From Oscillospiraceae bacterium (GTDB lineage: Bacteria > Bacillota > Clostridia > Oscillospirales > QAMX01), in the NCBI GenBank assembly GCA_015067825.1, contig SVLQ01000001.1, positions 262,485 through 326,484 of the forward strand: a DNA stretch of 64,000 nt, given 5' to 3'. Shown here one piece after another: positions 40,730-43,099 of this stretch. Within the stretch, counting starts at the first letter, position 1, and the number at the start of each line of letters is the position of its first letter. The position numbers and the translations under genes are program-made. The notes under the pieces were generated by a model, which did no database searches, was not told the DNA's origin, and saw only the letters and a program-made list of their open reading frames with translations.

Positions 40730-40792
40730 AACAATTACGATGCCGCGATCAAAAAAAGAATACAACCGCGGCGATATCAGGAGGTACATACC

Positions 40793-41584
40793 ATGAGAAA
40801 ATTGAGTTTGCTGCTCGCCGTTTTGATGCTCGTCTGCAGCTTTGCTGCCTGCGGCGCGACGGAAGAAGTCAAGATCGAATCCACCGCTGACCTCGTCGGC
40901 AAGAAGATCGGTGTCCAGCTCGGCACGACCGGCGATATCGTCATCGCCAGCGAAATCGAAGGCGCCGAAGTTATGCGTTACTCCAAAGCCATCGACGCGG
41001 CTCTGGCCCTCGCCGACGGCAAGATCGACGCCGTGATCGTCGACCTCGAACCGGCGAAGAACATCGTCGCTGCCATGCCCGAACTGAAGATCCTTGAAAA
41101 CACCGACTACGCCCCGGAAGACTACGCGATCGCCGTTAAGAAGGGCAACACCGAGCTCCTCGGCGTTATTGACGTCGTTCTCACCGAGATCAAAGCCGAT
41201 GGCACCTACGACAACCTCGTCAAGGGCTTCATCGAAACCGCCGAAGACGAACGCGCTCCCTACATCACCGGTGAGCAGGTCGGCACCGAAGGTACGATCG
41301 TCATGGCTACCAACGCCGAATTCCCGCCGTTTGAATACACCCTCGACGACGGCACGGTCGTTGGCCTCGACATCGAAATCGCCAAGCTGATTGCCAAGAA
41401 ACTCAACAAGACCCTCGTCATCAAGAACATCGCGTTCGACTCCCTGCTCCTTGAACTCGACAGCGGTGCCGCCGACTTCGTCATCGCCGGTATGACCGTT
41501 GATGCCGAACGCCTCCAGCAGGTCGACTTCTCGCAGAGCTACTACACCTCTGAACAGGCCGTTATCGTCCGCGCCGACAACTAA
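40793..41584 (+). CDS. polar amino acid ABC transporter substrate-binding lipoprotein, lobes in permuted order
   Basis: 263 residues with lipobox ending in Cys20 ('SFAAC'). All the parts of a family-3 (SBP_bac_3) amino acid binding protein are present but in the wrong order. Residues 31-150 ('ADLVGKKIGVQLGTTGDI', 'IDAVIVDLEPAKNIV', 'YAIAVKKGNTELLG', 'LTEIKADGTYDNLV') are normally the second half. Residues 166-260 ('TIVMATNAEFPPFEYTLDDG', 'VGLDIEIAKLIAKKL', 'IAGMTVDAERLQQVDFSQSY') are normally the first half. RBS 'aggagg' is strong and codon use strongly favours C-ending codons, suggesting high expression. Permease and ATPase genes follow. Confidence 0.88.
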   Translation: MRKLSLLLAVLMLVCSFAACGATEEVKIESTADLVGKKIGVQLGTTGDIVIASEIEGAEVMRYSKAIDAALALADGKIDAVIVDLEPAKNIVAAMPELKILENTDYAPEDYAIAVKKGNTELLGVIDVVLTEIKADGTYDNLVKGFIETAEDERAPYITGEQVGTEGTIVMATNAEFPPFEYTLDDGTVVGLDIEIAKLIAKKLNKTLVIKNIAFDSLLLELDSGAADFVIAGMTVDAERLQQVDFSQSYYTSEQAVIVRADN

Positions 41585-41607
41585 GATCGGATCTGATCGT
41601 CCCCAAC

Positions 41608-41645
41608 AGCGGAGAGCCGCATTTACTGTGGCTCTCCGCTTTCCA
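41608..41645 (+). terminator. intra-operon hairpin after the binding-protein gene
   Basis: 'agcggagagcc' pairs with 'ggctctccgct' around an approximately 12-base loop, with only a short T tail (ttcc). It is a partial terminator or mRNA-stabilising structure between the binding-protein gene and its permease. Confidence 0.55.
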
Positions 41646-41667
41646 TCACAAAGAAAAGGACCTACAA

Positions 41668-42393
41668 ATGAGTCAGTTTTTTGCGAATATCATGAGTTCC
41701 GTCTCCGGTTGGTGGGATGAGTTCTCGAATGAGTTTTATCAGAACTTTATTTTAAACGACCGCTGGATGCTTTTGGTCGACGGTCTTTCCGTCACTCTGA
41801 CTATCACGCTCGGCGCTTTGGTCATCGGTCTGATCCTCGGCGTTCTGCTCGCGTTGCTGCGCCTCTCCAAAAACAGCATCCTCTGCGGGTTTGCCAAGGT
41901 CTATCTGACGATCTTCCGCGGTACCCCGCTTTTGTGCCAACTTCTGATCATCAACTACGTCGTGTTCTCCGGAATCAATATCCCGCCGGTCATCGTCGCG
42001 ATCATCGCATTCGGTATGAACAGCGGTGCGTACGTCGCCGAGATCGTGCGTTCGGGTATCCTCTCGATCGACGTCGGTCAGACCGAAGCGGCGCGTTCGC
42101 TCGGTTTAAATCAGGTGCAGACCCTGCGCTACATCATTCTGCCGCAGGCCTTTAAAAACATCCTGCCGACGCTCGCCAACGAGCTGATCGTTCTGCTGAA
42201 AGAAACCTCGATCGTCGGCTACATTGCGCTGCAGGACCTCACCAAAGCCGGTGACTTCATCCGCAGCCGTACCTTCAGTGCCCTCATGCCGCTGATCGGC
42301 GTTGCCATGGTCTACCTCGCGATGACCACCCTGCTGTCGTTCCTCTTCGGCAAACTGGAAAGGAGGATGCGCGCCAATGATTCGCGTTCATGA
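41668..42393 (+). CDS. polar amino acid ABC transporter permease (HisM/GlnP type)
   Basis: 241 residues with an amphipathic N-terminus and about five membrane helices. The EAA-loop signature is '[32 protein letters not shown]' in pieces. The '[17 protein letters not shown]' segment is typical of His/Glu/Arg permeases. It forms the membrane channel for the periplasm-side binding protein. The stop is overlapped by the ATPase start (17 bases), so the two are coupled. Confidence 0.95.
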
Positions 42394-43099
42394 TCTGCAC
42401 AAGAGCTTCGGCCAGAACGAAGTTCTGAAAGGCATTACCGAGCACATCAAAAAGGGCGAAAAGATCGTTGTCATCGGGCCGTCCGGTTCGGGTAAGTCGA
42501 CCTTTCTCCGCTGCCTGAATCTGTTGGAAACGCCGACCGCCGGCGAGATCTACGTCGACGACGAACTGATCACACAGAAAAAATTCAACATCAACAAACT
42601 GCGCATGAAGATGGGCATGGTGTTCCAGAGCTTCAACCTCTTCCCACACCTCTCCGTCCTGCAGAATCTCACGCTCGCGCCGATCAAGCTCGGGCTGAAA
42701 ACTCCAGCCGAAGCCGAGGAAACCGCCATCGCTCTTTTGAAACGCGTTGGGCTGAGCGACAAAGCAAACGCTTATCCCAAGCAGCTTTCCGGCGGTCAGC
42801 AGCAGCGTGTCGGTATCGCCAGAGCGCTGGCGATGAACCCGGAGATCATGCTTTTCGACGAGCCGACAAGTGCGCTCGACCCGGAAATGGTCGGCGAAGT
42901 GCTTGAGGTCATGACCCAGCTTGCCGAAGAAGGCATGACGATGGTCGTCGTTACGCACGAAATGGGCTTTGCGCGGGAGGTGGCCAGCAGAGTGATGTTC
43001 ATGGACAACGGCCAGATCGTGGAACAGGGCCCGCCGGAACAGATCTTCTCTGCCCCGCAGAACGCCCGTACCAAAGAATTTTTGGGCAAGGTCCTTTAA
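42377..43099 (+). CDS. glnQ: polar amino acid ABC transporter ATP-binding protein (GlnQ type)
   Basis: 240 residues with Walker A 'GPSGSGKST' (about residue 36), Q-loop '[12 protein letters not shown]', signature '[15 protein letters not shown]', Walker B '[15 protein letters not shown]' and H-loop 'VTHEM'. It drives uptake through the preceding permease. The amino acid specificity is not visible from sequence. A terminator lies about 30 bases downstream. Confidence 0.96.

Follow-up and report, generated by a model that had tools for sequence, protein, structure and literature searches.

Natural circular permutation is usually viewed as a rare event that occurs once per protein family. Amongst substrate-binding proteins (SBPs), it is already known from OpuAC, which belongs to a family of glycine-betaine-binding proteins with a reported circular permutation (PMC2395249), and from Tp0684 (MglB-2, type Ic) of Treponema pallidum, a lipid-anchored and naturally permuted protein for which glucose binding has been shown (PMC4990184). 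Homologues of MglB-2 were found in Gram-positive gut bacteria, and Brautigam and colleagues raised anchoring as a driver of the permutation (PMC4990184). The gene analyzed here very probably encodes the binding lipoprotein of a polar-amino-acid ABC importer, with a chain that is circularly permuted and cut at its first hinge strand; within this reading, we infer the class of ligand, the role in transport, the altered tethering and the route by duplication.

The window, meaning the whole 64,000-nucleotide stretch of Oscillospiraceae DNA that was analyzed, carries on its forward strand, as do all features given below, a gene of 263 codons with an ATG start (positions 40793..41584). It encodes a permuted family-3 substrate-binding lipoprotein cut at hinge 1, an arrangement that we call type A. 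A Shine-Dalgarno sequence, AGGAGG, can be read upstream of the ATG at 40779..40784. The motif predicts a signal peptide and a lipobox, SFAAC (40793..40852), with the lipidated cysteine at residue 20, and this cysteine is invariant in an alignment of 27 type-A proteins. Read on the canonical profile, the mature chain starts just past the first hinge strand. Residues 24-148 (40862..41236; profile 98-220) comprise lobe 2, the second hinge strand at 109-116 and, at 120-148, the helices of the old C-terminus. According to the profile map, a new linker (residues 149-165; 41237..41287) then joins the old C-terminus to the old N-terminus. Residues 166-263 (41288..41581; profile 2-99) form the first part of lobe 1, with the old N-terminal part spanning 166-252 and the first hinge strand (255-260) left as the free C-terminus.

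Evidence for the inverted order was obtained from several sequence comparisons. The Pfam model PF00497 (SBP_bac_3) matched the protein with E=5.4e-33 and 114 bits, against a gathering cut-off of 26.4 bits, in two partial stretches: residues 169-263 corresponded to profile 1-94 and, when the N-terminal half was scanned by itself, residues 74-147 corresponded to profile 97-130. A phmmer search of the PDB returned 6svf, 4zv1 and 4prs as the closest solved relatives, each in two inverted pieces of 63-79 bits. For 6svf, query 162-262 aligned with chain 5-105 and query 30-145 with chain 112-225, the two pieces scoring 68 and 79 bits. On a profile that we made from canonical relatives, the protein likewise covered 98-220 and then 2-99. 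The initial annotation had proposed a natural circular permutation that puts the lipid anchor ahead of the second lobe, and its swapped lobe order was right to within a few residues: both halves are SBP_bac_3 homologues, inverted behind the lipobox, and the borders given above refine its own. The family-3 motifs that it quoted are all in the protein, the one given as 'ELKADGTYD-like' reading exactly EIKADGTYD. No single collinear full-length SBP_bac_3 match was found, and an unrelated N-terminal domain was ruled out by the 79-bit PDB match together with the profile matches of residues 24-148 to family 3. Judged from its sequence, the window protein is thus a permuted relative of SBP_bac_3 and no standard member, since the family runs from first lobe to second and here that order is inverted. 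No second SBP fragment lies near the window gene, and elsewhere in the genome there is one further homologue only, a weak one. For annotation pipelines, this means that family models match such proteins one part per stretch and that curated equivalog scores are missed; the window protein itself does not reach the curated NCBIfam equivalog scores.

The AlphaFold2 model of the window protein is confident (pLDDT 91.4, pTM 0.82) and has a predicted strand order that fits a bilobed type II fold. In VIA-align comparisons, the model matched OpuAC structures end to end over residues 24-263 (Z 12.7-13.5, identity 12-13%), including 5nxx (Z 13.5, 207 aligned) and 2b4l (Z 13.2, 214 aligned). Such a match is expected of a permuted type II protein, as OpuAC itself belongs to a permutation family. 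Given the low identity, and with no match to PF04069, the OpuAC family, listed for the window protein up to E=1, the modelled agreement appears to reflect a common chain order and not close kinship. Sequential aligners gave partial fits to canonical family-3 structures, or fits with the lobes exchanged. The GlnBP-like VIA matches (Z about 10, 9-19% identity) apparently have exchanged lobes and are not the homologous superposition, and the Foldseek TM-scores of 0.31-0.48 against the PDB come from sequential alignment and are hence uninformative against canonical SBPs. Residues 121-256 matched domain-1 constructs of TmArgBP with 33-35% identity. Additionally, a model of a type-C protein, introduced below, gave a collinear match to GlnBP-like structures over 105-296 (Z 15-16), which agrees with its different cut.

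The permuted gene is followed by a permease gene (41668..42393; 241 aa; PF00528 1.1e-23) of the His/Glu/Gln/Arg family, with TIGR01726 above its cut-off, and by an overlapping gene (42377..43099; 240 aa; PF00005 1.9e-36) for a GlnQ-like ATPase, whose best NCBIfam match is GlnQ at 321 bits, under the cut-off of 379. In this operon, the SBP_bac_3 relative is combined with a HEQRo-type permease and a GlnQ-like ATPase. A 14-bp RNA hairpin is predicted between the binding-protein and permease genes (41608..41640; -33.1 kcal/mol and z -5.6 for 41580-41670); in other systems, binding-protein mRNA is often more abundant owing to a hairpin at such an operon position. With regard to the ligand, T45, D84, R240 and Y250 are invariant in the alignment of 27 type-A proteins, and N174, F177 and F215 are each present in 26 of them. 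These kept positions align with sites of GlnBP-like proteins that we take to contact the alpha-carboxylate (Arg) and the alpha-amino group (Asp), and with aromatic ones, and the putative contacts point to an alpha-amino acid as the likely ligand class.

Relatives from gut and environmental bacteria were gathered by searching the family, order and phylum of the window genome, together with relatives from Fibrobacter. Within this set, 42 distinct type-A genes with inverted order were found (40 at first count); of 295 genomes sampled in the window's order, at least 26 have a type-A gene of checked order. L004 (64% identity) and L005 (62%) are inverted over their full length; further type-A proteins were found in Oscillospiraceae (L011-L014) and in Fibrobacter succinogenes (L015-L018, L021). 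The same permuted order was seen in many other Clostridia, for the most part beside the same permease: a permease, and usually also an ATPase, is directly downstream in nearly all permuted relatives. An adjoining permease is absent at the five Fibrobacter loci and at L011, L151 and L153, and some members may accordingly have no part in transport. At the Fibrobacter loci, no ABC transporter gene was observed within 4 kb of the type-A lipoprotein gene, and in L018 this gene sits between genes named by eye as Smr-like and acyltransferase-like. These orphans are possibly sensors or scavengers, or may serve a transporter encoded elsewhere.

When every homologous open reading frame was mapped on the canonical profile, the cut points were sharply clustered at positions 97-101 (type A), about 103-112 (type B), 128-130 (type D) and 166-169 (type C), with 40, 8, 2 and 21 distinct proteins, respectively, at first count. 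Type A is cut at hinge 1 and type C at hinge 2; type B is cut about 10 residues later than type A, where the first helix of lobe 2 has just ended, and type D inside lobe 2. The type-D proteins (L139, L149) are near-identical, end in IEGK/VEGK and come from one family-level group. Single permuted modules are fused to the permease in both type A (L113, L114, L123, L201) and type C (L036, L202), and one clade has the order C-N-C-N fused to the permease, in several members also to the ATPase. Seven loci (L167, L168, L191, L193-L196) encode such C-N-C-N, permease and ATPase importers in single reading frames of 1134-1210 aa. Combinations within operons were also seen: a type-C and a type-B gene lie side by side ahead of one permease at L162:1985-3770, and the operon at L159 has two type-A genes.

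Many genomes in the set are metagenome assemblies, and the inverted genes could in principle be artefacts of assembly or gene fusion, in which the 3' part of a binding-protein gene was joined to the 5' part of a different one. The probability of this is negligible in our judgement, as the junction, the linker length and the downstream genes are common to dozens of independent assemblies, and the single-contig genome G244 (2.19 Mb) carries a type-C gene in an operon (L152) as well as a divergent type-A gene elsewhere (L153). The joined genes are, moreover, under purifying selection, with pairwise dN/dS of 0.03-0.24 among close pairs and 0.15-0.26 against the window gene. A chimera of lobes from distant paralogues was also rejected, since separate lobe trees both put the window protein beside L004. 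The orphan copies in Fibrobacter would be in keeping with a permuted protein that acts as a sensor or scavenger and no longer serves an importer. For the permuted protein as such, we regard this as quite unlikely, because in the window and in nearly all Clostridia its gene comes first in an operon of SBP, permease and ATPase, mostly with no further SBP beside it, and because direct fusion to the permease is seen in L113, L114, L123 and L036.

The number of origins was addressed with a tree of 104 proteins whose lobes were restored to canonical order, in which 13 changes of state are needed; counted alone, types A, C, B and D and the tandem form need 6, 5, 1, 1 and 1 changes, respectively, although these counts do not separate gain from reversal, the basal branches are weak and the tree cannot be read for which ancestor gave rise to which permutant. 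A separate small branch of type A, with canonical relatives nearby, consists of the window protein and L004; L005 is a close copy. One ancient permutation behind all type A, with the interspersed canonical relatives explained as reversals or tree error, would agree with the clustering of type A on the tree, which is far beyond that of shuffles, and could draw on the weak basal resolution of the single-protein trees, which comprise 221 columns, and on counts that are blind to gain versus reversal. We nevertheless consider a single origin unlikely: by the AU test, neither the type-A proteins (p 2.7e-33) nor the type-C proteins (p 2.2e-6) form one clade, each lobe by itself agrees in needing many changes (10 and 8 for A), and the permeases that partner type A are likewise polyphyletic (p 6e-8). 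By these tests, types A and C are each polyphyletic, so that the permutation arose, or was reversed, more than once. Under horizontal transfer of a few genes, or chance, the state count would be unchanged and the carrier hosts could differ.

For the window protein, the following arrangement is proposed. After the lipid anchor, the chain would make lobe 2, cross the hinge once and form the C-terminal part of lobe 1; the new linker, of about 15 residues, would then lead to the rest of lobe 1 and to the first hinge strand as the free C-terminus. With fold and cleft kept, an alpha-amino acid would be bound by Venus-flytrap closure and handed to the adjoining permease-ATPase. What would change is the anchoring point of the chain, and only one of the two hinge crossings would stay covalent. 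The functional reassembly of ribose-binding protein halves that were cut at the hinge (PMC10601554) makes a cut at this place physically plausible. The lipid anchor now precedes lobe 2 on its hinge side, and the stretch between the lipidated cysteine and the fold, whose start was taken from profile matches, has a median of 7 residues in type A and 5 in type C, compared with 17 in canonical proteins (Mann-Whitney p 5e-7 and 2e-8, in a comparison that ignores kinship). The position of the anchor may in turn alter docking on the permease, as the initial annotation had suggested.

A likely route to the permutants is a tandem duplication in frame, after which the outer halves were lost. Canonical tandem relatives with the order N-C-N-C-permease are present (L006-L010, L019), and such fusions among close relatives provide the starting material that this route needs. 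Additionally, the linker of most permutants has 10-15 residues, which is about the spacing between tandem copies. Amongst the mapped homologues, no unambiguous case of a complete half-way gene (N-C-N or C-N-C) was found. L200 and L205 resemble N-C-N intermediates, but both are truncated by the end of their contig. In L192, two reading frames share what is a C-N-C-N gene, and L044 is no permutant but has an in-frame partial duplication of lobe 2 (L044:2475-3668; profile 2-174, then 89-220).

Altogether, we lean towards viewing the family-3 binding proteins of Clostridia as a natural system of recurrent, serial permutation, with several independent origins and four cut sites or more, of which three lie at the hinge crossings or near them. 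In this system, some proteins would have been re-permuted (type B nested with type C) and some made into one-chain C-N-C-N-permease-ATPase importers, perhaps as a short-tethered anchor at the hinge is favoured. In the open-access literature searched, we found no report of a permuted SBP_bac_3 or family-3 binding protein, nor of a single binding-protein family that was permuted repeatedly and at several sites; the family-3 case and its recurrence therefore appear unreported. Closely related genomes hold canonical, four permuted and tandem-permuted forms of one family with the same partners, and these provide a comparison set for how permutation arises, for the role of a two-strand hinge in Venus-flytrap closure and for that of anchor position in docking.

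Compared with the family-3 proteins GlnH, HisJ, ArtJ and TmArgBP, the window protein is alike in the homology of both halves, the binding motifs, the lipobox and the operon partners, but differs by its inverted halves, its new linker and its new termini at the hinge. OpuAC (2B4L) has a chain order that the window protein is predicted to share, and matches its model end to end, but belongs to another ligand class and is separated by the low identity and the missing PF04069 match noted above, so that this likeness is most likely convergent. Tp0684 (MglB-2) is also a lipid-anchored natural permutant, whereas its fold is that of a type I sugar-binding protein from another family with another cut; no type I sugar-binding family was amongst the Pfam or PDB sequence matches of the window protein, which were all to type II families. 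In GlnPQ-type tandem SBD-permease fusions (6h30), tandem copies are fused to the permease as they are in relatives of the window protein, but each GlnPQ copy has the canonical N-C order, and such tandem copies would be the starting point from which duplication could lead to permutation.
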